Shown here: piece after piece, positions 3,168 through 28,915 of the stretch | How the letters are laid out: each line of letters begins with the position of its first letter | Numbering within the stretch: position 1 is the first letter of the stretch | Assembly: GCF_018326305.1 (NCBI RefSeq) | Contig: NZ_AP023417.1 | Coordinates: forward strand, 78,481 to 142,480 | DNA length: 64,000 nucleotides | Reading direction: 5' to 3' | Source: Vescimonas fastidiosa | GTDB taxonomy: Bacteria > Bacillota > Clostridia > Oscillospirales > Oscillospiraceae | Translations under genes and position numbers: made by a program | Notes under the pieces: generated by a model | Database searches by the model: none | Seen by the model: only the letters and a program-made list of their open reading frames with translations | What the model was told of the DNA's origin: nothing

Positions 3168-3390
3168 CCGAGGATGCTGCACGGCTGTTGCCCGAGCTGT
3201 AAAAGGCCAGGCGACCGCCTAAAAGGAAAGGGGTGCAATTCCCCATGCGGTCGGCACTGTAAGCGCAAGGATATGATCGAGGCGGGAAACCACTGGGACG
3301 AAAGTCCGTCATTGCGAGAAAATCGTGAGAAGACAGATCATAAACGCAGAGAGTATCTCATGGCGCAAGTCAGTAGAATTGTGTAGTTAG
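3168..3390 (+). promoter_or_regulatory. Cobalamin (B12) riboswitch-like leader RNA
   Basis: The core reads AAAGGAAAGGGGTGCAATTC, then CCC, then ATGCGGTCGGCACTGTAAGCG split across 3221-3265. This follows the cobalamin riboswitch consensus (GGGAA, GGTG-AA-TCC, C-GC, ACTGTAA). Downstream, ACCACTGGGA (3289-3298) and AGTCAG (3368-3373) match the later conserved blocks, though GGGAAGGC is degenerate. An intrinsic terminator follows at 3443-3480. Known: such riboswitches bind adenosyl- or methylcobalamin and usually switch expression off when B12 is plentiful. A covariance-model search was not possible here; the boundaries are approximate. Confidence 0.78.
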
Positions 3391-3442
3391 GACTCAAAGG
3401 CAGCGGGCGCTCTCTCCGTGGTGCTGATATGGCAGAAGTGTA

Positions 3443-3480
3443 CGCTGATGACCCGGTATGGGTTTATCAGCGCTTTTTTT
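3443..3480 (+). terminator. Riboswitch expression-platform terminator
   Basis: CGCTGATGACCC (3443-3454) pairs with the G-G-G-T...ATCAGCG arm (3460-3472) over about 12 bp with one bulge, then seven T (3474-3480). It lies between the riboswitch core and the first coding start at 3508, so it can act as the transcription-attenuation switch. Confidence 0.88.
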
Positions 3481-3507
3481 GTCATGAATCATTAAGGAGG
3501 TGTGCCC

Positions 3508-3975
3508 ATGGGTAAAGTAGCAGGTGCGCAAAATTTTGACGGAGCGAATTGGTACGAGCAGCACATTGCCAAAAGAACACGGGATGCATTGGCTGAGCAG
3601 GACCGCGCTTTTGCGGAAAAACACGCAGGCGACAGCCTGGATCAGCTGGCGGCCTATCTCCGGCGCTGCGCCGGACATTGGGGAAAGTCCCCTGCCCCCA
3701 TCGAGATCGTCGGTGGCAGTTACATCGCAGAGCGCTTTGGCGATTGGAAAGATGCGCTGAGAGCCGCCCACTTGAATCCTATATACAAAAAACCCCGCAA
3801 TAGAGATTGCGGGCGCTATCAAAACGAAAAGAAAATCCAAATTCAGATGCATCGGAGCGAGCGTGACGCTAAACGGGCAGCACGGGTTGAGCGAGTCAAG
3901 CAACGCCAAAGCAAATGCGCTGTTCACGAAGCCACAGAGGAAACCTTCGTTGCAACAGATGTAATGCTTGAGTAA
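3508..3975 (+). CDS. Small HNH-repeat (homing-endonuclease-associated) protein
   Basis: A 155-residue protein started at the ATG at 3508 because AAGGAGG lies 7 nt upstream; a GTG at 3502 is too close. Residues about 36-88 carry the pattern P-x-x-x-E-I ... YIAERFGDWKDALRAAHL, which resembles the homing-endonuclease-associated (HNH_repeat) helical repeat used to bind DNA. No nuclease HNH core is visible. The second half is very basic (many Lys/Arg/Gln), with no signal peptide, so it should be a cytoplasmic nucleic-acid binder. It is the first gene after the riboswitch terminator and so would be B12-controlled. A regulator of the cluster or of inversion is possible. Function unknown. Confidence 0.7.
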   Translation: MGKVAGAQNFDGANWYEQHIAKRTRDALAEQDRAFAEKHAGDSLDQLAAYLRRCAGHWGKSPAPIEIVGGSYIAERFGDWKDALRAAHLNPIYKKPRNRDCGRYQNEKKIQIQMHRSERDAKRAARVERVKQRQSKCAVHEATEETFVATDVMLE

Positions 3976-4018
3976 GGTTTGCCAAGTCGAGGGCGGAGAT
4001 CCGCCAGCTTTTCCATAT

Positions 4019-4051
4019 GGGCAGAAGGGGCTTAGCCAGCCCCTTCCGCCC
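4019..4051. other. Long intergenic hairpin
   Basis: GGGCAGAAGGGGCT (4019-4032) pairs with AGCCCCTTCCGCCC (4038-4051), 14 bp with one mismatch. No T-run follows on either strand, so it is not a standard terminator. A smaller GGCGG/CCGCC hairpin followed by AGCTTTT precedes it (about 3992-4012). They may lower read-through from the riboswitch-controlled gene into the surface cluster. Confidence 0.6.
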
Positions 4052-4093
4052 AACCTCTTAACGAAAGCACCTTTCGCCTTGGACAGATCGGAA

Positions 4094-4122
4094 CGCGACA
4101 CCAATTATAATAGGGTGTCGCG
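4094..4122. promoter_or_regulatory. Inverted repeat enclosing a -10-like box upstream of the surface cluster
   Basis: CGCGACACC (4094-4102) and GGTGTCGCG (4114-4122) are perfect 9-bp arms around an 11-bp centre containing TATAAT (4106-4111). No good -35 is spaced at 17 nt; TTGGAC lies 21 nt upstream. It could be a repressor operator over a second promoter for the surface genes, or an RNA hairpin. If it is a real promoter, the cluster would not depend only on the invertible promoter and riboswitch. Confidence 0.5.
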
Positions 4123-4231
4123 CCCCTATATAACCTTGTTATTTTCTTATTGGATGCGAAAATGTGCTCGCAGCTAAGGTAATAATGCCAGCAGGCCTTA
4201 TTATAAAAAAATTTCTGAGAGGAGATTGGAA

Positions 4232-7200
4232 ATGCAAAAGACAGCGAAAAAGTTCCTTTCAATGCTGCTTGCGCTCATGATGGTTCTATCCATCCTTCCC
4301 ACGGCAGTCTTTGCAACGGAACAAGGCACAGTAGCTGCGCCGCTGGATAGTATTGTTCCCTATGGTGCGAATGACCAGACCACAGGAACGGCAACTATCA
4401 GTGTGCAGAACTCTGTGACCTTTACCGGCTACTCTGCTTTCGAGAATGTGCCCTACTACTTGGTCACCGTTCCCGCAGGCACGACCTATGTAAAGGCCAC
4501 ATACAAAGACGCTGCCATACTGACCAATGCCACAAGCGGTGTTGCATCCGGCTACTACGCCGATGTGCCGCAGTGGACTGGCGGCGGTGTAGAAATGGCC
4601 TATACGGAGAGCGGTGGGGATATCACAATTACAATTCCCTTGAACTACTCCCGTACCGCCGAGGATGGGACTACGGTCCAAAAGAGCTTTGTGCTGGGTG
4701 CAGATGGTAGCGGAACTGCCTATGCGCCGGAGTATGACGGCAGCGCCAGCTATGCGCCCGTCCATTTCCTCGCCTTCACCTATGAAGGCAAGTCGGCACC
4801 TACGGTCGCTCCCGGTGCAATTGCCACAGCTAATGTAACACTCGGTAATGCCTGGACGCTGGATGTGGCTGAAATGTTTACGGATGCCGATGGCGATGCG
4901 CTGACCTATACGGCAACCGTCAACGGCGCTACGCAAACGCTGAACGGCTCTACCTTGAGCTATACCCCTACTGCGGCTGGTGAGTATACGATCGTGCTTA
5001 CCGCTACCGACGACAGCGGCACGGCCACCCACACCATTGTTCTGACCGCTGCGGAGGGCACACAGGTCCCGCGGCTGAAGAGCGGCGTCCCGGTCACCGC
5101 AAGTGCAACCGTTTCGGTAGGATACGCCTATAACCTGTCCGATCTGCAGGCTGGCAACATCTTCGAGAATCCGGACGGTTCTTCCTTGAGCTACACCGAC
5201 TACTATTATTATAGAACAGCCGGGACTGGCGAAAGGAAGGGGCCTTACTACTTCTCCACGGCTCTGTTCGGTGCTACCACGATCCAAATCACGGAGAACA
5301 CCGCCGATACATATGTCTATGAGTTCCATGCCATGAACTCTGCCGGTCTGTCCACGGACACCTGGACGCTGACACTGACCGTAAGTGACTCGATCGAGCA
5401 GCACTATACTTTCCATGTTGGTCAGGATATGAACTATTCCACCAATGGCAGCCAGTATCCGCTGATCAAGCTCTACAAGACGGCTGGTCTTGACGATAAG
5501 GGCGCTGACTACCTGGCTTCCTATGAAGTTGATGGCAAGACCCAGTACATCTATGAGGACCATGACCAGTCCATCGCCGTGGTTAACGGCAAATACATGA
5601 TCACTGTCAAGGGGCAGGATTATGAGCTGAAAGGTTACAGCCCTCTGACCTTTAAGGCCAGTGATTTTACCACGGCTGACCCCAATTCCACCGGCACGCT
5701 GGCAGATAACTACAACAATTTCTATGCCAGCCTGGCCGCCGGCAGATATTCCTTCCGCGCCTATGGCTACAAAGCTTCGGAAACCAGCGCAAATGTTTAC
5801 CTGGGCGGCCACAGCTTGACCCTGCCCACTGAGACCAATGTGGACGGCGGCACCGGCGGCGGCGCGGATATTTATCTGCGCCTGCACTCCATCTATACCA
5901 CGAGCAAAAAGAACAGCAGCGACTATTTTACTGCTGATGACTATACGGCTCGTGTGGTCATGCCCAGCATGGGCGGCGATGTGCAGCATGGTACGCCCTA
6001 TCCTTCCGGCAATTATACTTACTACCCCTTCATGCTGTACTCTGCCGGAAACGCAGCCCTTTGGAATGCCTATGTGGAACCCATCGGCACCTGTGCCGAG
6101 GACTACATCTTCACTCAGGCGATCAACAACACGACTGCCGCCGGATACACGGTTGTTACAAAGAATCTGGCGCTTTCCCAGGCCATCAACCTGACGGTGA
6201 CGGTTCCTGCCTATGCGGACTTCAACCTGTTTTTCCAGTATAATAATTTCAACACACAGATCATTGAGCCGAAGACGGGCAGCACCAGTGGCGATGCAAG
6301 CGCATCCGCTGACGCTACCAGGACGCTGATCTACAAAATTAGCAAGAGCAATTCCAACTACACCTGGCGCTTGAAGGACATCCGCAGCGGCACCACTTAT
6401 GTGACCAAGGCCGGATGGCTCCAGAGCAGCACCACCAGTTTTGCGAAGGAATTCACCTTCAATGCTGGAGACTCCACGGATCAGTATTCTCACAGCTTCT
6501 CTAATCTTGGCACGATAGCCAAGACCCGTGACGAAGCGGAGATTCAGACCTTCTTGTCCCCCAGCGGCTACAAGTATACGAGCGGGACAGAGCGTATCCG
6601 TTCTTACCGCCTGTGGCAGATCATCAACTCTGACGCGGCAAATATCATGATCGAGCCCGAGTTCAAGGTCAAAGTGCTGAGCGGCGACGAAAACGCTGTC
6701 ACAGCAGTGACCGGCGGCAACGCCAAGGGCAACTGGCTGGATGTCACACCCAATGGCACAACGATCGTTGCCGTGAACTATAAGGCACTGGATGTCTACA
6801 CGACCGCTGACGAGCACGGCACCCACGGCGGCCTCTACCCGGCCACCAATCCCGAGCGCACCAGCGTGTTCGTGCTTACCAACGACAAGGATGAACACGG
6901 CAACGCGAAAGCCAATATCGCCTATAATTCCAATGGTCTGACATCTTCCCGTCCGTCGGCCTGGGATTATAACTACGACAACTGGTTCTATCTGAGTAAC
7001 GACACCGCTCCCACTCTGGACTTCTCGGTGTCCAGCAGCGGCACAACGACGGTCCAGTACGCCATCGTCACCACCGATGCAAGTGACCTGGATACCCATC
7101 TTTCCGGCTGGACCACCTTGACGGCGGATTCCAACGGCAAGTACCATGCAAGTCTCCTGGGCTTCCGCAATGCTGGGCTGGCTGGCGGTACTGTGATCAT

Positions 7201-9238
7201 CAAGATGCATGATAGCACCGGCACCTCCTACAGTCTGGCTCGCGTGGCCGAAGTGACCGCCACGGTCACCAACGCCTCCAATCCCCAGGAGACGGAGATC
7301 ATGCCCGGCGATAAGGTGTCTCTCACCTTCGAGGGCAGCTACCGTGGCATCTACAAGTACAGTGGTATCTTCAACCCCACTACCTACAACCTGTTCTATT
7401 CCATCGGCGATACGGCCTATAAGACCAATGTCGCCCAGTATCAGCAGATGGATCAGGCCAAGCTGGAGCTGACAATCCCGACGAATGTGGACTTTGGCTC
7501 CGGCAGCACCGCCAATGTTCAGCTCACCAACGGTTATACCTACGGCTCCATGTACTCGGCGGCGAATCCGTTTGCCACCCTGTATAACATGTCGAATACC
7601 GGCGTGGGCACGAACTTCAATGCGGTCACGGTGAACTTCTGCTTGAACCGTTTCCCCAATGTGAATGTGGAGGTCACTCCGCGCTATAACTTCAAGCTGA
7701 AGCTGAATATTACCAATCCCACCACCGCCACGCCCACTGTGACGCTGACGGATGCCGCAGGCAATGTCCATACCGCCAACAGCAACGGCGAGTATGAGAA
7801 CCTGCCCTACGGCACTTACACCTATGCGGTGCTCTGCGCCGGCTGCGACTATGTCTACGGCAGCTTCTACCTGGGCAGTGCAGACAAGGCCAATGTGTCC
7901 GGCGGTGTGCTGACCAAGACCATTCCGCTGACGGCCTCTGCTGCCGGCGCATGGGACGGCACCACCAAGACGCAGCCCACTCTGACCGATGGCGTGTATC
8001 AGATTGGTACCGCAGCGGAGCTGGCTTGGTTTGCGGCGCAAGTCAACGGCGGGAGCTATGCCATCAACGGTGCGCTGACGGGTGATATTGACCTGGCCGG
8101 CTACAACTGGACGCCCATCGGCGGCACTACCGCCAGCACAGCCTTCAAGGGCAGCTTTAACGGTAATAATCATACCGTGAAGAACATGGGCATCTACTAT
8201 AGTGCCACCACTACCTCGGCTCCGTATAAGGGACTGTTCGGCTATGTGAACGGCACCAGCAGCAGCTACGCCACCATTCAGAATCTGAAGGTGACCGGCA
8301 AGATGTACCTGACCTCCACGGGCAGCGTTGCCAACGCCTATTCCGGCGGCGTGGTGGCCTACGCCAACTATACCAACATCTCCGGCGTTGTCTCCGATGT
8401 TGACATCACCGTTACCCGTGTGAATGGCAACTGGAGCAGCGTGGGCGGCGTTGCAGGCCGTCTGGTGAATTCCAACGCCACCAACTGCGGCAACGAAGGC
8501 ACCATCCATGCCTACCAGTATGTGGGCGGCATCACCGGCTACGCTACCGGTACCATTACCGGCTGCTACAACGGCGGTGCGATCACCGGCAACGGCTATG
8601 TGGCCGGCATCGTGGGTCAGACCACCAAGGGCGTCACCGCTTGCTACAACACCGGCAGCATCACCGGTGCCGGCAACTATGTGGCGGGTATCGTGGCCTT
8701 TGCCTCCGGCGCGTCTGCCTCCGTCAAGAACTGCTACAACCGGGCCTATGTGGAGAGCACCGGCAGCAATGTGGGCGCAGTGGTCGGCATGACCAACAAC
8801 GCCTCCGCAGCGATGTCCAACCTGTATTATCTGGACTTCACCTGCAGTCAGGGCATTGGCAGTGCCAAGAGCACCTCTCAGACGGCTACCGCTAAGACCA
8901 GAGCAGAAATGGCCTCCGCTGATTTCGTGACGACCATGAACACTGGTATGGCGGGTACCTTTGGCTCCAGCAGGTATAGCCCTGCTTTGAGTTGGCAGAC
9001 CGGCTTGATTGGTTTGTCCACACCCACCAAGGGCAATGTGAATTTGGATCCCTTCGGATATGTGGACGAGGATGATTTGACATTGCTACAGGAGTGGGTC
9101 GATGAGGGTAAGGACATAAATCAACTCACGCTGGAACAGAGGGCACAAGCGGATATGGACGGAAGCGGAGACCTTGACGAAGAGGATGTTAATGCCCTCA
9201 TCCAGTATTTGGAAGATCCTAGGGAAAACCCGCTTTGA
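4232..9238 (+). CDS. Large secreted surface protein with GLUG repeats and dockerin
   Basis: A 1668-residue exported protein. The ATG at 4232 has GAGAGGAG 7 nt upstream. The signal peptide ends about residue 28 (AVFA). A cadherin/Ig-like module with FTDADGDALTYT lies at about 189-275, followed by a second related module and a long beta-rich region rich in Thr, Ser, Tyr and Asn. Residues about 1243-1535 hold GLUG-type repeats (GGVAG, YVGGITGYA, YVAGIVGQ), a fold seen in bacterial surface adhesins. The C-terminus (about 1600-1662) has two calcium-loop segments, NLDPFGYVDEDD and DMDGSGDLDEED, as in dockerins. I infer attachment to a cohesin partner, most simply one of those encoded at 9396, 11705 or 14816. 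It is the largest cluster protein; its ligand is unknown. Confidence 0.85.
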   Translation: MQKTAKKFLSMLLALMMVLSILPTAVFATEQGTVAAPLDSIVPYGANDQTTGTATISVQNSVTFTGYSAFENVPYYLVTVPAGTTYVKATYKDAAILTNATSGVASGYYADVPQWTGGGVEMAYTESGGDITITIPLNYSRTAEDGTTVQKSFVLGADGSGTAYAPEYDGSASYAPVHFLAFTYEGKSAPTVAPGAIATANVTLGNAWTLDVAEMFTDADGDALTYTATVNGATQTLNGSTLSYTPTAAGEYTIVLTATDDSGTATHTIVLTAAEGTQVPRLKSGVPVTASATVSVGYAYNLSDLQAGNIFENPDGSSLSYTDYYYYRTAGTGERKGPYYFSTALFGATTIQITENTADTYVYEFHAMNSAGLSTDTWTLTLTVSDSIEQHYTFHVGQDMNYSTNGSQYPLIKLYKTAGLDDKGADYLASYEVDGKTQYIYEDHDQSIAVVNGKYMITVKGQDYELKGYSPLTFKASDFTTADPNSTGTLADNYNNFYASLAAGRYSFRAYGYKASETSANVYLGGHSLTLPTETNVDGGTGGGADIYLRLHSIYTTSKKNSSDYFTADDYTARVVMPSMGGDVQHGTPYPSGNYTYYPFMLYSAGNAALWNAYVEPIGTCAEDYIFTQAINNTTAAGYTVVTKNLALSQAINLTVTVPAYADFNLFFQYNNFNTQIIEPKTGSTSGDASASADATRTLIYKISKSNSNYTWRLKDIRSGTTYVTKAGWLQSSTTSFAKEFTFNAGDSTDQYSHSFSNLGTIAKTRDEAEIQTFLSPSGYKYTSGTERIRSYRLWQIINSDAANIMIEPEFKVKVLSGDENAVTAVTGGNAKGNWLDVTPNGTTIVAVNYKALDVYTTADEHGTHGGLYPATNPERTSVFVLTNDKDEHGNAKANIAYNSNGLTSSRPSAWDYNYDNWFYLSNDTAPTLDFSVSSSGTTTVQYAIVTTDASDLDTHLSGWTTLTADSNGKYHASLLGFRNAGLAGGTVIIKMHDSTGTSYSLARVAEVTATVTNASNPQETEIMPGDKVSLTFEGSYRGIYKYSGIFNPTTYNLFYSIGDTAYKTNVAQYQQMDQAKLELTIPTNVDFGSGSTANVQLTNGYTYGSMYSAANPFATLYNMSNTGVGTNFNAVTVNFCLNRFPNVNVEVTPRYNFKLKLNITNPTTATPTVTLTDAAGNVHTANSNGEYENLPYGTYTYAVLCAGCDYVYGSFYLGSADKANVSGGVLTKTIPLTASAAGAWDGTTKTQPTLTDGVYQIGTAAELAWFAAQVNGGSYAINGALTGDIDLAGYNWTPIGGTTASTAFKGSFNGNNHTVKNMGIYYSATTTSAPYKGLFGYVNGTSSSYATIQNLKVTGKMYLTSTGSVANAYSGGVVAYANYTNISGVVSDVDITVTRVNGNWSSVGGVAGRLVNSNATNCGNEGTIHAYQYVGGITGYATGTITGCYNGGAITGNGYVAGIVGQTTKGVTACYNTGSITGAGNYVAGIVAFASGASASVKNCYNRAYVESTGSNVGAVVGMTNNASAAMSNLYYLDFTCSQGIGSAKSTSQTATAKTRAEMASADFVTTMNTGMAGTFGSSRYSPALSWQTGLIGLSTPTKGNVNLDPFGYVDEDDLTLLQEWVDEGKDINQLTLEQRAQADMDGSGDLDEEDVNALIQYLEDPRENPL

Positions 9239-9335
9239 TAATTGATTATCCAAGTAAAACCGGGTAATGTTCATCTGATCAGCCGTATTAACTGAAACAC
9301 TCGGTAGGCCAAAAGGCTTGTACCCCTTTGAACGC

Positions 9336-9371
9336 AGGTCCGGGGAATCCGCTTGCGGATTCCCCGGACCT
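9336..9371 (+). terminator. Perfect 16-bp intergenic hairpin
   Basis: Positions 9336-9351 pair perfectly with 9356-9371 around a CTTG loop. No poly-T follows, so it is more likely a partial terminator or mRNA-stability element between the first two surface genes than a full stop. Confidence 0.6.
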
Positions 9372-9395
9372 TATACTTATATACTGGAGAATAGT

Positions 9396-11588
9396 ATGAA
9401 AAAACAGATTTTTTCGTTTATACTTGCGATTGCAATGCTCTTAAGCGTAGTTCCTGTGGCTTTTGCCGTTGAAACTGGTCAAATCTTCACTTTAACTTTT
9501 GATAATAAAGCTCCTCATGCTGGAGATAAAATAACTGCAACGATTAATTTGGATCAAACTCCATCTGACTACTATAAAGTCACTACCACTCTTAAGTATA
9601 ACAAGGATGTCTTGACTTATGAGAGTTATACCTGCTCTTGGGAGGGTATGACTTGTACCGTAACGGAAAAAAACTCTGGTGACGACAAATCGAAGGTTTT
9701 CTTCAAAATCGACAGCAACAAAGGCAAAGATACAGATATTTTGAATAAAATTCAGACGCGCCAAACTGGTGCGTTTGCCACAGTTACATTCAAGGTAAAT
9801 GACTCCTGTAAGGTTGGACAAGCGATCAACTACACATTTCTCGGCTCATTTTATGATGCAAAAGCAATGGCTGCCATCAATAACGCCAGAGTAACAGGCT
9901 CTCTTGCTGTTACTGAGCAGGGTGGCAGTATAATCACCGTTCCAAAAACTGAAACCGGCTACTCTGTTTCCATGGGTGCTGACCAGCAGCTTGTTTCGGG
10001 TCAGCGGGTGCGTATCCCCGTGACCGTCGCCTCCTCCGAGAAAAAGATCACCGGCTTCAACGCCTATGACATGACCTTCACCTATGACCCGGCGGCCCTG
10101 ACCCTGAACACCAAGACCGGTGCCGCCGCCAACCTGACGGTGGAGGACAACAACGGTACCGTTCGGGTCCGCCGCTACGGCGATGCCGTGCCCTTGGGCG
10201 AGGCCCTGGCCCTGGAGTTCACCGCCAAGGCGACTGCCACCTCCGCCGTGACGCTGACCAACGCCAAATTTGATCTGGATGCCAACTCCATCAACTTTGA
10301 CGCTCCGGAGGCCACCATTTCCGACGCCGACACCGTGGTCAACGCCAATAACTTCACCGTGACCCTGCCGGATGCGTTCACCTCTGACGAGACCCGCCTG
10401 GTCCCCAAGGGCGGCAGCTTCACCTTCAAGCCCGTGGACAGCCACTATACCTACACCTTCACCGTGAAGATGGGCGACAGCGCCACCGAGGGCTTGACCT
10501 TCGGCGCAAATGACACCTACACCATCGAGAATATCTCCGGCAATGTGGAGGTCACCTACACCGGCAAGACCCCCAAGCAGTACGATGTGAAATACAAGAT
10601 TGACGAAGATGTGGAGCAGGATGTGACCAAGGGCCCGGAGACAGTCACCTATCTGAATGACTACTCCTTCGTCGTCACCCCGAGGGCCGGCTACTCCTAC
10701 CGTGTAATTTACAGTGTAGACAACGGGGATCCCTTTGTCCATACAGTCATAGCGGTCCCCACTGCCAATGACGATGGCACCCTCACCTACACGATCCCTG
10801 GAAAAGAAATCGTTGGAGGTGTGGAAATATGGATCGACCCCAACACAGAATCTGGTATTCCGGTCGTGTTCACCGGCAACGGCGTTGAGGACGCAGCCTC
10901 CGGGAATGCAAGCTCTATGGGCAAGAATATGCCCTACTACTTCACGCTGAACCAGCGCGAGAGCTGCGACTACACCGTCACGGCTTACTATCAGCCCCTC
11001 GCCACTCCCACAGCTTCTAAGAGGCCCGCCACCGTGCGCAGCCTTGGCAATGGGAAATATGTGGTCGAGGCCGTGAATTATAACGACTATCTGTATGTAT
11101 ACGCCAGAAGCTGGAACCTGGTCGTGAAGGTGGAAAAGGTCTCCCACAGCGCGGAGGAAGTGACCGTGTCCAAATATCTGGAGCTGAATGACAAGACCAT
11201 GATGCTCATAACGGTCAAGGGCACCCCCGAGGGAGGCAAAGCCTTCACCTATGACTGCAACACCATGTATAAGGTCAATGCCTACGGCACGGATCAGTAC
11301 GCATGGCTGGTGATCGTGGACAAGGGTCAAACTCTGACCCAGGAGGAGGCCGCCGCCAAGGTCGCCATCTCTGCCGCAGACAATGTGGTCACCATCACCC
11401 TGGGCTTCGATGTGAACATGACCGGGAAGGTGGATGTTAACGATGCGCAGCTGGTCTACGATATGTATAACGGCAAATACAGTGACTTCACCAAGGTTTC
11501 CGTGGAGAAGTTCCTGCGGGCCGATGTAAACGCCACTAAGGTGGTGGATCACACCGACGCTGTGGCCATCGTGAATCAGTTTAAGTAA
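9396..11588 (+). CDS. Secreted adaptor protein with two cohesin-like modules and a dockerin-like end
   Basis: A 730-residue exported protein. I use the ATG at 9396 (CTGGAGA just upstream) because it begins a clean signal peptide ending at AFA (about 26). Two cohesin-like beta-sandwich modules follow (about 28-175 and 188-315), the second with YDMTFTYDPAALTLN. Repeated beta modules occupy 320-580. The C-terminus (about 669-730) has two dockerin-like calcium segments, DVNMTGKVDVNDAQLVYDM and a second containing RADVNATKVVDHTDAV. Carrying both cohesin-like and dockerin-like parts suggests an adaptor that chains to other members. It is a paralogue of the protein at 14816-16882: same order, related second cohesin, nearly the same dockerin. 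No enzyme motif is seen. Confidence 0.82.
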   Translation: MKKQIFSFILAIAMLLSVVPVAFAVETGQIFTLTFDNKAPHAGDKITATINLDQTPSDYYKVTTTLKYNKDVLTYESYTCSWEGMTCTVTEKNSGDDKSKVFFKIDSNKGKDTDILNKIQTRQTGAFATVTFKVNDSCKVGQAINYTFLGSFYDAKAMAAINNARVTGSLAVTEQGGSIITVPKTETGYSVSMGADQQLVSGQRVRIPVTVASSEKKITGFNAYDMTFTYDPAALTLNTKTGAAANLTVEDNNGTVRVRRYGDAVPLGEALALEFTAKATATSAVTLTNAKFDLDANSINFDAPEATISDADTVVNANNFTVTLPDAFTSDETRLVPKGGSFTFKPVDSHYTYTFTVKMGDSATEGLTFGANDTYTIENISGNVEVTYTGKTPKQYDVKYKIDEDVEQDVTKGPETVTYLNDYSFVVTPRAGYSYRVIYSVDNGDPFVHTVIAVPTANDDGTLTYTIPGKEIVGGVEIWIDPNTESGIPVVFTGNGVEDAASGNASSMGKNMPYYFTLNQRESCDYTVTAYYQPLATPTASKRPATVRSLGNGKYVVEAVNYNDYLYVYARSWNLVVKVEKVSHSAEEVTVSKYLELNDKTMMLITVKGTPEGGKAFTYDCNTMYKVNAYGTDQYAWLVIVDKGQTLTQEEAAAKVAISAADNVVTITLGFDVNMTGKVDVNDAQLVYDMYNGKYSDFTKVSVEKFLRADVNATKVVDHTDAVAIVNQFK

Positions 11589-11597
11589 GGTCCTGCC

Positions 11598-11627
11598 AGC
11601 CTCCCTTCCCCGGCGGGAGGGGAGGCT
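11598..11627 (+). terminator. Intergenic hairpin
   Basis: AGCCTCCCTTCCC (11598-11610) pairs over 13 bp with 11615-11627 around CGGC. No T-run follows. Like the hairpins at 9336 and 16900 it separates adjacent surface genes and probably tunes their relative expression. The remainder of the gap to 11705 holds two further G/C hairpins and no gene. Confidence 0.6.
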
Positions 11628-11704
11628 ATCCCCCGTTGGGGGCTTCGCACCGGCCAGGCCGGGCAAAAAACGGCCCAACCGGTCGGAGAGAGAAGGAGAT
11701 CAGC

Positions 11705-12751: not shown

Positions 12752-12777
12752 TCTACGCATAGATGAGGTAAACAAAT

Positions 12778-16927: not shown

Positions 16928-17015
16928 AATTCGCCATATTTTGAGGCTTTACCATTGCCTCCTGTTTTAGGAGACGATGGTAAGAATCCAAAATAAGCAT
17001 TTGGAGGATACCCGT

Positions 17016-21125: not shown

Positions 21126-22219
21126 GAAAAACGATCTTAGGCAGCGCCCTGTGTTATCTGATCCTGCTGCTGGCGTTGGCGGCGCTGCTTCTTACAAGCG
21201 GCTCCTTCTGGGCGCTGGCCGGACTCTGCTTGCTGCTCCTGCTGCCCCTGGCCTCCTGGGCGGTCAATTTCTATGTTCGCAGGCACCTGCAGGCGGACAT
21301 TCTGACCCCGGCCACAGCGGCAAAACGCACGGCAGTCAGCTGTCGGGTGCGTATCCGCAACGGAGCGTTTCTGCCCGTAATGCGCTATGGCTGTCAGGTC
21401 TCTATCCGCAATGATCTCACTGAGGAAGACCAGACAGTGACGCTGACCGGCAGCATCGGAGCCAAGGGCGAAAGCAGCCAAACCATCCTGCTGCAAAGCA
21501 GCTTCTGCGGCAGAGTGTATGTGCAGATCAGCCGGTTTACCCTGCTGGACTATCTGGGCCTGCTTCCCATGAAGGCCCTCGTGAAAGCGGATGCCCGTCT
21601 GACCATCCTCCCGGACCTGTATCCAATGGAGGCGGACATGACCGCCCGACCGGCCTATGCCGACGACGGCACTTCCAATCGACGGGGTGAGGACCGCAGC
21701 GAGGTGTACCAGCTCCGGGAGTATCGCCCCGGCGATGATATCCGGCAAATTCACTGGAAGCTGTCCTCCAAGTTAGATGAGCTGATTCTGAAAGAGGCCA
21801 GCCAGCCGGAGAGCCGTTCCCTTTTGGTATTCTGGGATAAGCGTCCCGGCGGTAACCCCCAGCAGATGGACGCACTGGCGGAGGTCGTGTCCTCCGCAGG
21901 CATGGCACTGCTGCAAAGTGGTGTACCCTATACCCTGTGCTGGACGGACCGGGACGATCTGCAGGTCCAGGACATTTCAGAGGAAAACCAGCTTTTGCAG
22001 GCCATCCCGTCTCTGGTAAAAACCAGGGGCAGCGCTGAGTGCCGCCTGCCCAAAACTGACGGTTACAGCCGAATTCTCTGTTTCGGCACAGCGCCGGAAG
22101 AACAGCTGCTCACGGACGGACGGGTGCATTTCATCCTCTGTACCGAAGAACAGTACCCCGGTGCGACCACCTTTGCCCCGCAGAATTATTCCGAGGCCAT
22201 GCAGCGACTGGAGGTTTAA
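21122..22219 (+). CDS. DUF58 membrane protein
   Basis: A 365-residue protein; the ATG at 21122 overlaps the moxR stop. Two membrane helices lie at the N-terminus (about 6-24 and 27-47), followed by beta-rich and vWA-like parts. The DUF58 signature is seen at about 195-225: EVYQLREYRPGDDIRQIHWK, followed by SSKLDELILKEA. DUF58 proteins are regular partners of MoxR ATPases and probable scaffolds, function not firmly known. Translational coupling suggests a complex with MoxR and the following transglutaminase-like protein. Confidence 0.92.
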   Translation: MRKTILGSALCYLILLLALAALLLTSGSFWALAGLCLLLLLPLASWAVNFYVRRHLQADILTPATAAKRTAVSCRVRIRNGAFLPVMRYGCQVSIRNDLTEEDQTVTLTGSIGAKGESSQTILLQSSFCGRVYVQISRFTLLDYLGLLPMKALVKADARLTILPDLYPMEADMTARPAYADDGTSNRRGEDRSEVYQLREYRPGDDIRQIHWKLSSKLDELILKEASQPESRSLLVFWDKRPGGNPQQMDALAEVVSSAGMALLQSGVPYTLCWTDRDDLQVQDISEENQLLQAIPSLVKTRGSAECRLPKTDGYSRILCFGTAPEEQLLTDGRVHFILCTEEQYPGATTFAPQNYSEAMQRLEV

Positions 22220-22225
22220 TCCATC

Positions 22226-24409
22226 ATGCGAAAAAATGAAAACGGACTCCAGTGGATTGTCACCGAAACGGCACAGAAAAAGCTGCACTTTCCCTGGGGT
22301 GCTTGGGTGGTCTGTGCCGTTCTGACGGTGGGCTTCTGCTTGCTTTTAACCGCTGCATTTCCCTCTGTTCCCTACCCATGGTGGGCCATGACAGCAGCTG
22401 CGATTTTGGTGCAGGCGGCGTTGCTGATAGTATACCAAACCAGAATCGGGAACTGGCTCGTTCCAGCGGGCATCGGCGTGTTGCTTCTTCTGAGCTTGGC
22501 ACTGAACAAATTTGTCCTACCCGGTTTTGGAACACTGGCAAATGATTTCCTGACCCTGCTGACGAAAAAGACCGGGAAGATCTACCTGGACCTTGCGGCA
22601 GCGGATGCCCAATTTCTGCCTCTGGCGGTAACGGTTCTGCTACTGGCGGTGTCGCTGCTTCTCAGCCGTAGCGCATGGAGCGGACGGATGCTGCTGGCCT
22701 TGCCGATTCTGCTGCCCTGCTATGCAGCCCTGTTGCTGGGCTTGTTTCCCATAGGCATCGGCGGTGGGCTGCTGATTATTGGCACGGTGCTGCTGATGGT
22801 GCAGCACACGGCAGAGGGAGAAGCCCTTGCAGGCGTTCCGGCGCAGCTGATCTTGCCGGTCCTGTGTGCAGCGCTGTGTCTGCTGATGGGCCTGTCCTGC
22901 CAAGACAAGCTGAATACAGACATGGTCGAGACGATGCAAACCCAGCTTCACCAGCGGCACTACGACAGCGATACCAATTCCATGCCGGAAGGAAACCTCA
23001 AGAACTTACCCGCCTGGAATAAAAGCGACACCCCGGCGCTGGAAGTCACAATGGAGCAGCCGGAAAAGGTGTATCTGCGTGGGCAGGTCTACGACACCTA
23101 CACCGGCACCGGCTGGAAAGCAGCCGATACCGAAGAAACTGCCCAATATGAGGACCTTTTCTATTGGCTCCATGAGGCGGGTTTCTACGGCCAGAGTCAA
23201 ATTGCACTGGCGGATGGCTATACGGAGACGGCCACACCGTTGTCCATGACTATACGAAATCTCTCCGCCTGTTCCGCCCACGGCTACTACCCCTACGCCG
23301 TCTACGGCAGCGAAACGCTGGCAGCGGACCGCATCGGGGACACGAATCTGCCCCCGGCAGAGAGCCTGTATTATCTGAAAGGCAGCGTCCCGGACTGGTA
23401 TCAGATCCAGCGGAACCTCTCCACAGCCCAGGGCCGGGAAAACATCGAGACCTATCTATCCAAGGAGCAGGCCTATGCCGACTATCTCCGGGCCGTGGAC
23501 CTGCAAATGACCCAGGATAGCTGGGCCGTCCTCCAGCGGCAATTGAAGCTGGACACCCAGACCCGGACCATCAGCGACATCCGCACCATCATCTTTGACT
23601 ATCTACGGGAAGCCATGACCTACGATGCGACTGCCCGGACCATGAACGGCAGCGGCGACTTCCTGCAATATACGCTGGAGCGCAGCGGACACGGCTACAG
23701 CGTCCATTACGCCACGGCAGCGGTGCTGATGCTGCGCTACATGGGCGTTCCGGCCCGCTATGTGGAGGGATATTACCTCTCGGCAGAGGATGCCGCCCGC
23801 TACAAGGCCGGTGAGACCATTACCCTGACGGAAGAAAACGCCCACGCCTGGGCGGAATACTATGTCAGCGGTGTCGGCTTTGTGCCGTTCGAGGTGACTC
23901 CCGGCTACATAGACGACGAGGAACTGTCCCTGGGCGGCGACAGCCCTGATGAGAATACCTATGAGAACAACACCCAGCAATTTGTAGAGGTGGAGCAGCC
24001 AGAGGAGATCAACGAGCACAAGCAGGACCGATTTACCTTCTCACTGAATGCCCACTACCTACTGCTTCTTCCCTTGCTGCTGATCCTGCTGCTGGCCGGG
24101 TGCATTTTCCATCGCCGCAGGGTGTTTCGGAAGAAGATGGCCGCTATCGACGCCGCAAACGACCGGGAGGCCATTGCCATGCGCTATGGCTATGCCGTTT
24201 GCCTGCTGCGCCACAGTACGGTGCAGTTCCCGGAGGATGCTGCGGAGGCCGCAGAACTGAATCAAAAGGCGCTGTTCAGCACCCAGGAGATGACCCCGGA
24301 GCAGCGCAAGCAGGTTGACTCATTTGCCGTGCGTGTACTGGATGCCTGCAAGGGCAGCTGGACAACCTGGGAGAAAATACGGTACCGGCTATGGAACTGC
24401 CTGTATTGA
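22226..24409 (+). CDS. Multi-pass transglutaminase-like membrane protein (TgpA type), Ser in place of catalytic Cys
   Basis: A 727-residue protein, 6 bp after the DUF58 gene. About six membrane helices (residues 20-220) precede an extracellular transglutaminase-like domain (about 440-570), and a further helix (about 609-628) leads to a cytoplasmic tail. The core motif reads GHGYSVHYATAAVLMLRYMG, where the usual active-site Cys (G-Y-C-x-H-F-A) is Ser. The His motif ENAHAWAEYY and the later VPFEVTPGY are kept. The change may remove cysteine-protease/transglutaminase chemistry or define a serine-bearing subgroup. With MoxR and DUF58 it completes a familiar three-gene set that may modify or assemble surface proteins. 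Confidence 0.88.
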   Translation: MRKNENGLQWIVTETAQKKLHFPWGAWVVCAVLTVGFCLLLTAAFPSVPYPWWAMTAAAILVQAALLIVYQTRIGNWLVPAGIGVLLLLSLALNKFVLPGFGTLANDFLTLLTKKTGKIYLDLAAADAQFLPLAVTVLLLAVSLLLSRSAWSGRMLLALPILLPCYAALLLGLFPIGIGGGLLIIGTVLLMVQHTAEGEALAGVPAQLILPVLCAALCLLMGLSCQDKLNTDMVETMQTQLHQRHYDSDTNSMPEGNLKNLPAWNKSDTPALEVTMEQPEKVYLRGQVYDTYTGTGWKAADTEETAQYEDLFYWLHEAGFYGQSQIALADGYTETATPLSMTIRNLSACSAHGYYPYAVYGSETLAADRIGDTNLPPAESLYYLKGSVPDWYQIQRNLSTAQGRENIETYLSKEQAYADYLRAVDLQMTQDSWAVLQRQLKLDTQTRTISDIRTIIFDYLREAMTYDATARTMNGSGDFLQYTLERSGHGYSVHYATAAVLMLRYMGVPARYVEGYYLSAEDAARYKAGETITLTEENAHAWAEYYVSGVGFVPFEVTPGYIDDEELSLGGDSPDENTYENNTQQFVEVEQPEEINEHKQDRFTFSLNAHYLLLLPLLLILLLAGCIFHRRRVFRKKMAAIDAANDREAIAMRYGYAVCLLRHSTVQFPEDAAEAAELNQKALFSTQEMTPEQRKQVDSFAVRVLDACKGSWTTWEKIRYRLWNCLY

Positions 24410-24427
24410 AAACAAGGAGGAAGGAAA

Positions 24428-27400
24428 ATGCACAAAAGAGTAATGGCTCTGCTGCTGAGTCTGGTGCTTCTGCTCTCTGCCGCCATGCCGGTCACGGCGA
24501 TGGCCGCAGAGGAGTACGCCGGTAGCTTTGTGCTTGTGGCTATGAACGCCAACAGCACCATCGTGGAGCCGACCCGTATCCAGTATAAATCTGGGCAAAC
24601 CATTCAACAGGCGCTGGCGGATTCAGATATTGACTTTGTCGGCCTGGAAAACGGATTCGTCTATGAGATCAACGGCGTTTCCGCCAATTACCTGCTCTAT
24701 TATGACAAGGGTGGCTATAAGCTGGACGCTCCGGCTTCTTCCGTCAAGGCCCTTTGCTTCCATGTATCTTCGACTTATTCGGACGCAGCTATCCAGCTGA
24801 TTATCCAAATGGCGGATTACCTGGACATGACCAACCATGTGCAGAATTATCCGGCAGCGGCCAATGCCTACGCAACGGCGCTGAAGGGCCTGCGGACGGC
24901 AACTGCCGACTCGGCAGGACCATTGCTGAAAAACCTGAAAGACGCCATTGCCGAATATGCGGCCCTTCTGGACGGGACCAAATACACCGTCTCCGCCACA
25001 GCAACCCAAAACGGCAATGCGGTGGAGGCACCGATCCTCTCCCTTACGGATGTCTATGGCAATGTTACCACCGGCACCGGCAGCGTCCAAGTCATCGCCG
25101 GCGACTATAAGTTCTGTGTGTCCGACGGCGGATATAACCGCACAGAGGGAACGCTGACGGTCTCCGCCGACGCCCAGGTCGCTGCGACCCTGCCCTACGG
25201 CGAGTGGTTCGGCAATATCCGGCTGCTGGATGTCGATCAAGAACCCTACCGCGCTGCACAAAACCGTGCAAACCACACGGCGCAGTATTGGATCGAGGAT
25301 ACAGCCAATGCTCTGAGCAGCGTGTATCTGAATGCGGCGATGGGCAATGTCCCGAATACCAAGACCACCAAGCTCCGCACCATCTATACCGGCACCAACG
25401 GCAAGGATATGTCGGGCATATCCCGCAGCTGGAACAGCACAGCCACATCCCTTACTTATCTGCTGACCTCTGGCATGGAGGGCAAGACCTTCGCGCTGGA
25501 AGCACAGTATACAGGCTCGGACGGCTACACGCAGATTCAGTCCTACGATGTCACCGTGACCCGTGTGCCCACGCTGAAGGCTCTGGCAGCCACGGCGGAG
25601 GGGACCAAGCTGCCCCTGGAGTTTGCGCCCAACACCCGGGAGTACAGCCTAAAAACCGTGTCCTCCACTGTGGATATTGACGCCGCACCATTTGGTGAGG
25701 ATTATACCGTCACCGGAACCGGGGCGGTGCAGCTGACCGGAGACACGCAGGATCACATGATTCAGGTAGCAGCGCCCAACGGGGAGCAGAGCACCTATAC
25801 CCTCCACATTCAGAAGGTAGCTTCCGTACCGGTGACGCTGGCTGTGCCTTCCGGAACAACGGTGCAGGTGATCAATGGAGCAGGCTCCGAGATTGCCCCG
25901 GTGGACGGGATCTATCACCTGGTCCCCGGCGAGAGCTATACCTGCATCGCCACGAAGAACACCTGGTATCATACGCAGATCACCTTCACGGCCTCCAGCG
26001 GACTGAATGTGTCCGTCCCGGAGCCTGTCACCACCGACTGGCTGACCGATCTGGCATTCTACAACGGCACCTATGCTTCCAGCCGGATCGCCTACGCCGC
26101 CGACAAGACCTTCACGGCGGCAGACCACACCTACAACTATACGGTGTCCGACTGCAACAGCTCCGTTGCCATGCAGGCCACGGCAACCGGAACCGTGACG
26201 GCGCTGTATCGGACCCAAAGCACCGTGCCGGAGATTCATAATCTCGCACGGATGGAGACGATCACAACGCCTGTCAGCAAAACGGGTCTTGCTCAGAGCC
26301 TGACCTACGCCGTGGCCAAGGCCGGTTACGGCCAGACGGTGACGATCCGCATTTCCAAGACAGAAAACGGCACTACCTACTATCAGGACTACGATATTCA
26401 GCTGCTGCGGCAGCTGCACCTGTCCAGCCTGACTATTGCCACAAAGGATGAGACACTGCCCTTTGTAACTCTAAAGGGCGGAACGGCCCGCTTTGATCGA
26501 GATACCACGGATTATTATGTTAAGGTAGACCGGGAGACCACCGCTCTCTACCTCTCCGGCACCTATCCCAACAGCAGCACAGACACCGCCTGCTGCGGCG
26601 GGTACTATGCCAAGGTCAACGGCGTACGCTATGATGCGCTGGCCGGCGCGGAAGCGGTTCTGAACACAGACCTTTATAATGAGGATATTTCGGTACAGGT
26701 CTGCCACGCAGATACCGGCAGCATTGAGCTGACCTATACCGTCCATGTTCAGAAGAGTGACCCCATCCAACTGACCATCCAAACGACTCCGGCGGATGCC
26801 ACGGTGTTCCTGACCAACGACCTGAACGGCAAGCGCATCGTGGAGAAAAACGGCACCTACAGCCTGACCCCCGGTGCCAGCTATTCCTACACTACCACCT
26901 GCGCCGGGTACATCGGTCAAACGGTGGAGCACTATACCGCCCCCGACAAGGACGGTACACTGACCATTACGCTAAAGAAGGCTCCAGCCAACGACAAGCT
27001 CATCAATTTCGATTCTGCGTGGCCCCACTTACGCCAAAACAATGAGAATAACGGTGTGGTGGACTACAAGACGCCGGTCTACGCCAAGGATGCCGAGCTG
27101 TACTGGGCTACCTCCATTGGATCCGGCTACGATGTGAACGCCTGCGGCTGCCCCATTTTGGTGGACGGTGCCATCTACACCTACTCCGGCTCCCGCATTT
27201 ACAAGGTGGATGCTATCTCCGGCGAAATTCTCATTGATAAGCCCATGGATCACAACTCCAGCTTCGCCATCAACCCGCCCACCTACGCCAACGGCATGAT
27301 TTTCGTGGGCCTGTCTGACGGCACGATCCAGGCGTTCGACGCCAATACCCTGGACTCCCTGTGGATCTACCGGGACTCCATCGGCGGTCAGCCCAACAGC

Positions 27401-28834
27401 TCTATTGTCTATCACGACGGCTACATCTACACCGGCTTCTGGGTAGGCGAGATCAACGAAGCCCATTATGTCTGCCTGAGCGCCACCGACGAGGACCCCA
27501 CCCAGACGATGGAAGAAAAGCTCCCCACTTGGTACTACACCAGCAAGGGCGGCTTCTATTGGGCCGGTGCCTATGTGTGCGACGACTTCCTGCTGATCGG
27601 CACGGATGACGGCGCTTCCGGCTACACCACCGGCAAGCCCAGTCTGCTGTCCTTTAACCCCAAAACCGGCGAACTGCTGTCCTCCTACAAGATGAATGTG
27701 ACCGGCGACATCCGCAGCTCTATCACCCATTACAACGGCAAGTATTACTTCACCAGCAAGGGCGGCTACTTCTACGAGGCCACTGTGGACGAAAAGGGTA
27801 CCATTGAGGATGTCCGCACCTTGAAGCTCTACAACTATGCGGACGATCCCGCCAATCCCGCCATGTCCACCTGCACACCCACCATTTACAATGGGCGGGC
27901 CTATATCGGCATCTCCGGCACGGCACAGTTCGGCGCATACAGTGGCCATAACCTTACGGTCATCGACATCCCCAACTGGGAGATTGCCTATACGGTACGC
28001 ACCCACGGCTATCCCCAGACCAGCGGTGTTCTGACCACGGCCTATATGGAGGAGACAGGCTGCGTCTATGTGTACTTCTTCGATAACTTCACCCCCGGCA
28101 AGCTCCGGGTGCTGGAGGACAAGCCCGGCCAAACCGAGGTGTCTCTGAAGACCATGGAGACCAACACGGCCAGCGGCCAGACGGAGACCTATACGACGCC
28201 CTACAACATCTTTACGCCCAGCGGCGCACAGGCCCAGTATGCCATTTGCAGCCCCATCATGGATGAGTACGGCACGATCTACTTCAAAAACGACTCCGCC
28301 TACCTGATGGCCGTGGGCAGCACCATTGAACGCATCGAGGTCACGAAGCTGCCGGACAAGACGACCTACAATGTAAAAGACACCTTCGACCCCACCGGTA
28401 TGCAGGTAACGGCCTACTACGCCAACGGCATGACCCGTGATGTGACAAAGTATGTCACCTGGTCCGATAAGCCGCTGAAGGCCAGTGATACCGACTTCCA
28501 GATCACCTTCCCCTACGCCATGTACCAAAACCGAGAAAACAGCGACACCCTGGAGATGGAATACGGCGTCCACTGCGATAAGCCCATGACTACCCTGACC
28601 CTGACCATTGGGGACCAGACCGAGGTCAAATACGGTGATGTAAATGGGAATGGTAAAGTCGATTCCACGGATGCCGCCATTGTCTACCGTTATGCAAATG
28701 GAAAATATCAGTTGTCTGCGGATCAACTTTTGGCAGCTGATGTAAATGGTGATGGTGTCGTGAACACGACGGATGCTGCATTGATCTACCGTGTAGCAAA
28801 CGGAAAGCTGTCAAAGTTCCCGGTGGAACAATAA
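24428..28834 (+). CDS. Giant secreted beta-propeller/cadherin-like dockerin protein
   Basis: A 1468-residue exported protein; ATG at 24428 after AAGGAGGAAGG. The signal peptide ends about 27. Residues about 30-115 (YKSGQTIQQALADSDIDFVG ... VYEINGVSANY) look like a DUF4430-type module. Cadherin-like beta-sandwich modules occur at about 381-460 and 662-780 (TREYSL and TDYYV patterns), a PEGA-like module at 780-857, and a PQQ-type beta-propeller at about 858-1298 (ISGEILIDKP, DGTIQAFDANTLDSLW). A Big_3 Ig-like module (1299-1395) and a type I dockerin (1401-1466; DVNGNGKVDSTDAAIVYR, DVNGDGVVNTTDAALIYR) follow. The dockerin nearly equals that of 12778-14790. It is the last gene before the cluster terminator and probably a ligand-binding effector on the cohesin scaffold. 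Confidence 0.83.
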   Translation: MHKRVMALLLSLVLLLSAAMPVTAMAAEEYAGSFVLVAMNANSTIVEPTRIQYKSGQTIQQALADSDIDFVGLENGFVYEINGVSANYLLYYDKGGYKLDAPASSVKALCFHVSSTYSDAAIQLIIQMADYLDMTNHVQNYPAAANAYATALKGLRTATADSAGPLLKNLKDAIAEYAALLDGTKYTVSATATQNGNAVEAPILSLTDVYGNVTTGTGSVQVIAGDYKFCVSDGGYNRTEGTLTVSADAQVAATLPYGEWFGNIRLLDVDQEPYRAAQNRANHTAQYWIEDTANALSSVYLNAAMGNVPNTKTTKLRTIYTGTNGKDMSGISRSWNSTATSLTYLLTSGMEGKTFALEAQYTGSDGYTQIQSYDVTVTRVPTLKALAATAEGTKLPLEFAPNTREYSLKTVSSTVDIDAAPFGEDYTVTGTGAVQLTGDTQDHMIQVAAPNGEQSTYTLHIQKVASVPVTLAVPSGTTVQVINGAGSEIAPVDGIYHLVPGESYTCIATKNTWYHTQITFTASSGLNVSVPEPVTTDWLTDLAFYNGTYASSRIAYAADKTFTAADHTYNYTVSDCNSSVAMQATATGTVTALYRTQSTVPEIHNLARMETITTPVSKTGLAQSLTYAVAKAGYGQTVTIRISKTENGTTYYQDYDIQLLRQLHLSSLTIATKDETLPFVTLKGGTARFDRDTTDYYVKVDRETTALYLSGTYPNSSTDTACCGGYYAKVNGVRYDALAGAEAVLNTDLYNEDISVQVCHADTGSIELTYTVHVQKSDPIQLTIQTTPADATVFLTNDLNGKRIVEKNGTYSLTPGASYSYTTTCAGYIGQTVEHYTAPDKDGTLTITLKKAPANDKLINFDSAWPHLRQNNENNGVVDYKTPVYAKDAELYWATSIGSGYDVNACGCPILVDGAIYTYSGSRIYKVDAISGEILIDKPMDHNSSFAINPPTYANGMIFVGLSDGTIQAFDANTLDSLWIYRDSIGGQPNSSIVYHDGYIYTGFWVGEINEAHYVCLSATDEDPTQTMEEKLPTWYYTSKGGFYWAGAYVCDDFLLIGTDDGASGYTTGKPSLLSFNPKTGELLSSYKMNVTGDIRSSITHYNGKYYFTSKGGYFYEATVDEKGTIEDVRTLKLYNYADDPANPAMSTCTPTIYNGRAYIGISGTAQFGAYSGHNLTVIDIPNWEIAYTVRTHGYPQTSGVLTTAYMEETGCVYVYFFDNFTPGKLRVLEDKPGQTEVSLKTMETNTASGQTETYTTPYNIFTPSGAQAQYAICSPIMDEYGTIYFKNDSAYLMAVGSTIERIEVTKLPDKTTYNVKDTFDPTGMQVTAYYANGMTRDVTKYVTWSDKPLKASDTDFQITFPYAMYQNRENSDTLEMEYGVHCDKPMTTLTLTIGDQTEVKYGDVNGNGKVDSTDAAIVYRYANGKYQLSADQLLAADVNGDGVVNTTDAALIYRVANGKLSKFPVEQ

Positions 28835-28866
28835 ATCATAGTGGTACACGGAAATAACCCGGATAT

Positions 28867-28915
28867 GAAATGACCTCCCCAGCTTGACCCTATCGCAAGC
28901 AGGGGAGGCCATTTC
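28867..28915 (+). terminator. Terminator closing the surface cluster
   Basis: A long hairpin: GAAATG-ACCTCCCC (28867-28880) pairs with 28902-28915 with one mismatch, and an inner GCTTG/CAAGC stem closes the loop. It lies 33 bp after the last surface gene and marks the end of the transcription unit. Confidence 0.8.

Follow-up and report, generated by a model that had tools for sequence, protein, structure and literature searches.

A probable corrinoid-capture surface apparatus with transcobalamin-like modules behind a cobalamin riboswitch-like leader in Vescimonas fastidiosa

The animal vitamin B12 carriers transcobalamin, intrinsic factor and haptocorrin combine, in one chain, an alpha/alpha toroid and after it a beta-domain of the DUF4430 type. 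Among gut bacteria, surface capture of B12 is described for the Bacteroides lipoproteins BtuG and BtuH, of which BtuG is a beta-propeller (PMC6143338, PMC8941943). Surface capture of B12 is little known in Firmicutes, for which btuH homologues have been predicted in three members, one of them near an ECF-like cobamide transporter (PMC8941943). Here we describe a gene cluster of Vescimonas fastidiosa (GCF_018326305.1, contig NZ_AP023417.1, positions 78,481 to 142,480 of the forward strand; this whole stretch of 64,000 nucleotides (nt) is called the window) that is probably a surface apparatus for capturing corrinoids, i.e., vitamin B12 and its analogues. A first-pass annotation of the DNA had proposed such a machine with intrinsic-factor-like modules. 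The capture reading is supported by a transcobalamin beta-domain fold, by an 81-bit riboswitch near CobT and CobS genes at the orthologous operon of a relative, by a one-sided association of riboswitches with genes of this kind and by ECF-type neighbours in some relatives, whereas a specific likeness of the toroid to intrinsic factor did not hold up.

Both folds of the animal carriers, the alpha/alpha toroid and the DUF4430-type beta-domain, were recovered by structure comparison. Unlike those carriers, the window modules are encoded by two genes, with DUF4430 first, and are separate membrane-tethered bacterial proteins in a riboswitch-led cohesin/dockerin cluster; the window toroid resembles other toroids at least as much as it does intrinsic factor. 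Because both the one-chain order and the score of the family profile PF01122 (14.5 bits on the window protein, with a cut-off of 25) failed, we do not file the system in the transcobalamin/intrinsic factor family, though we propose that it works like transcobalamin. The order from 1654 to 28834 begins with the two inverted 29-nt sites, which enclose first the leftward recombinase gene and then a rightward promoter-like site. The riboswitch match, a hairpin and an open reading frame with an HNH repeat come next, followed by eleven same-strand genes, of which the final six encode, in order, the DUF4430 protein, the alpha/alpha-toroid protein, MoxR, DUF58, a TgpA-like transglutaminase and a PQQ-propeller/dockerin protein. 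The features on which the argument turns are:

1654..1682, no strand: left recombination site of 29 nt, 11-nt arms around a 7-nt core, perfect inverted repeat with 3062..3090
1665..2948, minus strand: tyrosine recombinase within the predicted invertible segment (PF00589, 94.7 bits), its 3' end entering the left site
3011..3039, plus strand: promoter-like site TTGACT-17-TACAAT inside the cassette, facing the operon (10 of 12 matches)
3062..3090, no strand: right recombination site, inverted copy of 1654..1682
3184..3398, plus strand: probable cobalamin riboswitch aptamer (RF00174, 28.7 bits, model positions 1-189)
3443..3480, plus strand: intrinsic terminator hairpin with T-run, from sequence and RNA fold the likely expression platform of the riboswitch
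16977..18962, plus strand: membrane-anchored protein (by eye) with a low-complexity linker, an Ig-like region and DUF4430, transcobalamin beta-domain fold
18159..18593, plus strand: DUF4430 or transcobalamin-beta-like domain (about residues 395-539 in the 16977 product; the alignment covers 205-349 in the segment that was modelled)
19057..20181, plus strand: secreted alpha/alpha-toroid protein by structure comparison, with a C-terminal membrane anchor (by eye)

For the 16977 product, the DUF4430 profile PF14478 gave 23.3 bits on the whole protein and 24.5 bits on residues 191-600, straddling the cut-off of 23.8, and 27 of 29 aligned rows matched the profile at E up to 0.001. A second structure comparison of the model returned the transcobalamin beta-domain fold in rows 1-8; the best 50 Foldseek rows for the model were headed by L,D-transpeptidases, cadherins and Ig-like chains and held no transcobalamin, and single domains of long models may score weakly in such comparisons. 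Searched against PDB sequences, the DUF4430 profile found transcobalamin at E 1.3 only, as the third of four rows. The membrane-anchored DUF4430 protein predicted earlier keeps its domain by fold, with an anchor recognized by eye. Its residues about 70-185 form a low-complexity linker, and at least 120 homologues that are 99-100% identical over residues 190-600 span 624 to 672 amino acids (aa), which suggests repeat-length variation. A stretch that looks by eye like a divergent DUF4430 lies at residues about 21-180 of the 24428 product, where Pfam gave no match.

The fold of the neighbouring 19057 product is an alpha/alpha toroid, and the membrane anchor predicted together with it was again recognized by eye. 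It is a toroid, though not specifically an intrinsic-factor-like one: squalene cyclases came first in the structure ranking, the toroid profiles matched terpene cyclases among PDB sequences, with intrinsic factor and transcobalamin absent up to E 10, and neither carrier was listed in a PDB sequence search with P0137. These rankings could mean that the toroid is an extracellular enzyme of the terpene-cyclase or lyase type, to which DUF4430 would be an accessory domain. We consider this very improbable. Class II terpene cyclases are the best toroid matches by both sequence and structure, and a D-x-D-x-T-A motif found in most toroid rows resembles the D-x-D-D motif of terpene cyclases, but an acidic residue fills its final position in just 1 of 22 rows, the protein appears by eye to be secreted and membrane-tethered, and control by a B12 riboswitch together with ECF neighbours suits a binder better. 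The 2.5-Mb host genome has nine toroid places (L053-L058 among them; L and G numbers denote loci and genomes of our comparison), seven of them in open frames of 1122-2234 aa; three host toroid frames (L053, L056 and L057) also carry a DUF4430 match.

The RF00174 match in the leader covers the full model length, with E 4.6e-5 in the 1.4 kb searched and E 2.0e-5 over the whole genome, where it was the better of only two matches. Over-threshold riboswitches occupy corresponding or same-core places in two relatives, with 81.4 bits in G151 and 31.9 bits in G125. Since its own score stays below the Rfam gathering score of 31.5 bits, we call the window element a probable cobalamin riboswitch. The terminator attributed to the leader was also found, as a hairpin (3443-3472) followed by seven T and supported by RNA folding, although it is missing from a simple terminator scan of the window. 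The second match in the host genome is partial (C1:1440767-1440905, equal to L060 8768-8906 on the minus strand; 25.6 bits, positions 51-166) and was not returned by the riboswitch search at E up to 0.01; the single downstream open reading frame scanned there had no Pfam match.

The orthologous operon of G151 lies on contig C41, which overlaps JAUMWJ010000013.1, a Eubacteriales metagenome-assembled genome, exactly; the loci L072 and L088 are counted once. It opens with the 81.4-bit RF00174 match and its own terminator hairpin (by eye), followed by a homologue of the HNH-repeat protein (L088 7485-7673, 37% over 63 aa), a 1631-aa dockerin protein with parts resembling the 670-aa and 1670-aa window proteins, a cohesin/dockerin protein and a cohesin-Flg protein, and then continues with DUF4430, toroid, MoxR, DUF58, TgpA and PQQ genes. 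As a whole, the operon follows the plan of the window cluster; its cohesin/dockerin block is organized in another way, and the 9318 gene had no separate homologue among the matches. A second riboswitch (72.6 bits) is found upstream of the operon, together with genes for AP_endonuc_2, CobT and CobS, neighbours that belong to corrinoid salvage. In G125, a member of the same genus, the sole RF00174 match ends about 36 bases before the longest possible open reading frame of the same-core DUF4430 gene.

Among 150 genomes of the family, toroid homologues occurred in 59 (99 places), DUF4430 in 103 and RF00174 in 114. The 99 toroid places and the best 150 DUF4430 places were compared with at least 152 riboswitches (150 listed plus two of the host genome); the riboswitch list was made with stricter filters, and the association counts are lower bounds. 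Among the matches listed, a same-strand riboswitch lay within 5 kb upstream of at least 12 of the 99 toroid places and downstream of none, with about 0.12 places expected by chance (a rough Poisson estimate for an assumed mean genome of 2.15 Mb); for DUF4430, the corresponding counts over 150 places were at least 13 upstream and 1 downstream. A laxer re-search of eight genomes, chosen as belonging to the same genus or holding close or many toroid homologues, found 34 riboswitches, of which six preceded a toroid or DUF4430 place by no more than 5 kb, where 0.2 were expected. Combined, the counts at 5 kb were at least 15 of 99 upstream vs 0 for toroids and at least 19 of 150 vs 1 for DUF4430.

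Operons of the window type, in which DUF4430 and/or toroid genes adjoin MoxR, numbered 11 (the window, L033, L034, L035, L036, L037, L071, L072/L088, L073/L074, L079 and L080), and a riboswitch stands ahead of five of them (the window, L037, L072/L088, L079 and L080). No upstream riboswitch was seen at L033, L034, L035 and L071, whose contigs stop no more than about 3 kb from the first core gene. L067 (in G088) was left out of this count, as it has toroid, PQQ, TgpA and DUF58 genes but any MoxR neighbour lies beyond the stretch; riboswitches are present about 16 kb further upstream on its contig. Four further named loci have a DUF4430/toroid pair: L075, L076 and L078, the last also with the start of a MoxR gene downstream, have an over-threshold RF00174 match upstream, and L077 has an AdoCbl-II match below threshold (32.5 vs 36.5 bits). 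Over ten named loci, this amounts to over-threshold same-strand RF00174 matches upstream in six (L072, L075, L076, L078, L079 and L080), the one sub-threshold AdoCbl-II match, and none in three (L071, L073 and L074). Six of 17 more deeply searched genomes (G125, G096, G153, G154, G157 and G158, all reached via these genes and the last four of unstated completeness) had a single RF00174 match, which in all six either belonged to a locus of this kind or preceded a DUF4430 gene.

L062 and L066 both combine toroid and DUF4430 genes with genes for a double ABC ATPase and an ECF S domain; a T gene (CbiQ-like) was recognized in L066 only. L062 is, by its sequence, a version with cell-wall domains: its toroid protein (6589-8295) bears two SLH stretches, and genes for DUF4430, an ABC ATPase and an ECF S domain come after it. 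At L093, two riboswitches accompany a toroid, a DUF4430 protein and ABC/ECF S genes; L091 combines a riboswitch with DUF4430 and ABC/ECF S genes and gave no toroid match. Neither of these two had cohesin or dockerin homologues in the stretches examined. Such neighbourhoods of ABC ATPase and ECF S-domain genes recall ECF-CbrT of Lactobacillus delbrueckii, the available part of whose account mentions no soluble surface capture protein (PMC5997447); the window operon, for its part, has no ECF genes. An ABC/ECF cluster of the host (L059) includes a strong DUF4430 protein, with no riboswitch match there at E up to 0.01. The host also encodes a lysine 5,6-aminomutase adjoining BtuR and a URO-D/B12-binding protein, while CbiC and NrdJ had no match in its genome (CobS and CobT were not searched for there), and on these grounds it seems to use B12, to depend on uptake for it and to be unable to make it from scratch. 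Near the contig end, window positions 60765-63944 encode an IclR regulator, a FecCD permease (61640-62707, the only one found in the genome), an ABC ATPase and a SAM-dependent methyltransferase (by eye). We rejected this permease as the B12 importer, as the window holds no over-cut-off riboswitch and the genome search placed none there.

Besides the sub-threshold score of the leader and the precedence of cyclases among the toroid matches, several observations weigh against the corrinoid-capture reading. The Pfam scan of the operon proteins found no transporter, EcfA, EcfT and S being absent, and the genome-wide RF00174 search detected no riboswitch at the host toroid genes other than that of the window. 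Among the riboswitches listed, 84 of 99 toroid places had none within 5 kb upstream after the re-search, and at wider range one downstream case appears (16 vs 1 at 10 kb and 17 vs 1 at 20 kb for toroids). L036 with L089 and L073/L074 (in G060 and G152) are genuine negatives, with upstream sequence present and no riboswitch in it, and many of the 150 genomes have a single riboswitch, most of these not seen linked to toroid or DUF4430 genes.

The remaining genes of the operon encode surface modules and a putative processing set:

3502..3975, plus strand: HNH-repeat protein (PF18780, 33.2 bits), with a partial homologue at the matching place of G151
4226..9238, plus strand: 1670-aa secreted surface protein with PKD-like and dockerin-like stretches, all under Pfam cut-offs
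9318..11588, plus strand: 756-aa cohesin protein (PF00963, 44.2 bits, cut-off 24.1) with a weak dockerin
11636..12751, plus strand: 371-aa cohesin-like protein (PF00963, 23.2 bits, just under cut-off) with two Flg_new repeats (PF09479, 129.6 bits) and a membrane segment (by eye)
12778..14790, plus strand: 670-aa dockerin protein (PF00404, 61.7 bits)
14816..16882, plus strand: 688-aa protein, cohesin-like by eye (PF00404, 14.2 bits, and the ricin-type lectin PF14200, 16.6 of 25.6 bits, both under cut-off)
20178..21125, plus strand: MoxR AAA ATPase (PF07726, 186.6 bits), its start overlapping the toroid stop
21122..22219, plus strand: DUF58 protein (PF01882, 24.4 bits), likely start ATG at 21122
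22226..24409, plus strand: TgpA-like membrane transglutaminase (PF01841, 70.8 bits)
24428..28834, plus strand: 1468-aa PQQ-type beta-propeller protein (PF13360, 37.5 bits) with a C-terminal dockerin (PF00404, 59 bits)

The Pfam matches bear out both the cohesin-like and dockerin modules and the MoxR-DUF58-transglutaminase set of the first-pass annotation: cohesin is clear in the 9318 product and borderline in the 11636 product, and dockerin is clear in the 12778 and 24428 products and under cut-off in the 4226, 9318 and 14816 products. The presence of clear cohesin and dockerin domains would also fit a cellulosome-like or adhesive structure for glycans or mucus, whose expression the riboswitch would merely time and in which toroid and DUF4430 would be structural or glycan-binding; the sub-cut-off lectin match in the 14816 product and toroid structural matches to sugar epimerases, glucuronyl hydrolases and a polysaccharide lyase point the same way. 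Cellulosome scaffolds share type I cohesin and dockerin with this locus, but Pfam found no glycan-degrading domain, with or without dockerin, among the 12 operon proteins scanned (3502-28834). Moreover, L093 and L091 pair riboswitches and DUF4430 with ABC/ECF genes without this scaffold, and CobT and CobS adjoin the G151 operon, all of which makes a glycan or mucus structure unlikely. The propeller of the 24428 product was considered as a possible counterpart of BtuG, a reading that found no support in sequence: a profile search gave BamB and quinoprotein dehydrogenases, and BtuG was not among the 38 PDB sequences listed.

The earlier reading of an invertible promoter cassette ahead of the riboswitch is borne out in its repeats and its enclosed recombinase. 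The two copies of the 29-nt site are identical at 29 of 29 positions, are the only ones in the genome allowing up to three mismatches, and each have a 7-nt core between 11-nt arms that match at 10 of 11 positions, the form expected for tyrosine recombinase crossover sites; the gapped pattern had no match in 100 shuffles of the window. The recombinase gene between them has Xer-like NCBIfam matches, every one below its cut-off. Inverted repeats flanking a segment that encodes a site-specific recombinase let us predict a phase switch from this one genome. Inversion itself was not observed: the 29-nt site was absent from the viral contigs searched, so that no alternative orientation was seen, and one assembly of the species was searched. 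The promoter part is weaker: the cassette has TTGACT-17-TACAAT as its sole promoter-like site, and sites of this kind are no more numerous than chance would give, a further point against the proposed scheme. The repeat might instead be what remains of a mobile recombinase gene, or its attachment structure, with the operon driven by a fixed promoter, an explanation that we hold to be doubtful but realistic. It would agree with the chance-level promoter count and with G151, whose operon has an ordinary-looking TTGACA-17-TATAAT promoter (by eye) and no 29-nt-type site or recombinase homologue in the stretch examined. Two perfect inverted copies around a recombinase speak against it, as does G085 (L033 14362-15740), in which a related site (11-7-10 letters) stands beside a recombinase 40% identical, both following a 39.1-bit cobalamin riboswitch at the end of the orthologous operon, where a terminator is also found. 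In G085, a second site, 81% complementary, lies at the very contig end, and the riboswitch reads toward the recombinase, which it may control; this arrangement differs from that of the window. A signal peptidase S26 gene (window 825-1232) is located close to the recombinase cassette.

The recombinase RecV of Clostridioides difficile cmrRST is encoded elsewhere; unlike cmrRST, the candidate phase switch of the window carries its own recombinase and precedes a cobalamin riboswitch, so that both would need to be permissive. The likeness of cmrRST is that a riboswitch and an invertible promoter meet at one operon, with c-di-GMP as the ligand and the riboswitch upstream of the invertible element and acting independently of it (PMC8844915). 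DUF4430 is named in six of the papers searched, PMC4350170 among them. We found no paper pairing a cobalamin riboswitch with dockerin, and the available parts of PMC3766115, PMC6977713 and PMC9600662 name no such system; most subscription papers were outside the search, so novelty in print is unproven.

The toroid and MoxR genes, and likewise the MoxR and DUF58 genes (DUF58 start at 21122 by eye), overlap by four bases, a pattern expected of co-translated genes. The operon had been described as same-strand genes running to one terminator. The strand is indeed the same throughout, but the hairpin near 28875-28915 has no good T-run (by eye), which leaves a single terminator unproven, and with two further hairpins in the gap 3976-4225 a single transcript from 3184 to 28834 is not established. 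Further downstream, window 45727-59283 is mobile-element-like, with NAD-dependent DNA ligase, PcfJ, YodL, RecD2 helicase and, at 58072, a phage-type integrase.

The analysis establishes the module folds, the gene order, the riboswitch similarity and its conserved association; from these we infer corrinoid binding and hand-off, expression induced by scarcity, promoter inversion and the roles of the scaffold and the MoxR set, as follows. With the cassette promoter facing the genes, transcription would pass through the cobalamin riboswitch. When corrinoid is plentiful, the aptamer would close and the 3443-3480 hairpin end the transcript; when it is scarce, the operon would be expressed. The DUF4430 and toroid proteins, each held at the membrane by a segment of its own, would form the two halves of a transcobalamin-type clamp, around which the cohesin and dockerin proteins may assemble more surface modules, such as the PKD-like protein and the beta-propeller. 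MoxR, DUF58 and TgpA might help to construct or process the assembly. Bound corrinoid would then pass to an importer in the membrane, which is probably an ECF transporter encoded outside this cluster; ECF-type genes share a cluster with toroid and DUF4430 genes in some relatives.

More broadly, we lean towards the view that surface corrinoid capture of this sort is widespread in gut Bacillota and represents an undescribed class of systems. They would consist of transcobalamin-type toroid (alpha) and DUF4430 (beta) modules, either fused or separate, supply ECF importers and be controlled by cobalamin riboswitches; in Vescimonas fastidiosa, a cohesin-dockerin scaffold would carry the system, and a self-encoded DNA inversion, placed in series with the riboswitch, would act as an additional gate. 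In gut communities, competition for B12 is of consequence. Should the modules bind corrinoids, a function would be assigned to a large family that now bears the names of DUF4430 and of terpene cyclases/prenyltransferases, cohesin-dockerin scaffolds would gain a role beyond glycan breakdown, and a bacterial counterpart of intrinsic factor would become testable. A DNA inversion that acts in series with a nutrient riboswitch would amount to a testable two-key control, and the B12 carriers of animals would, if this is true, have a counterpart in bacteria, by descent or by convergence.

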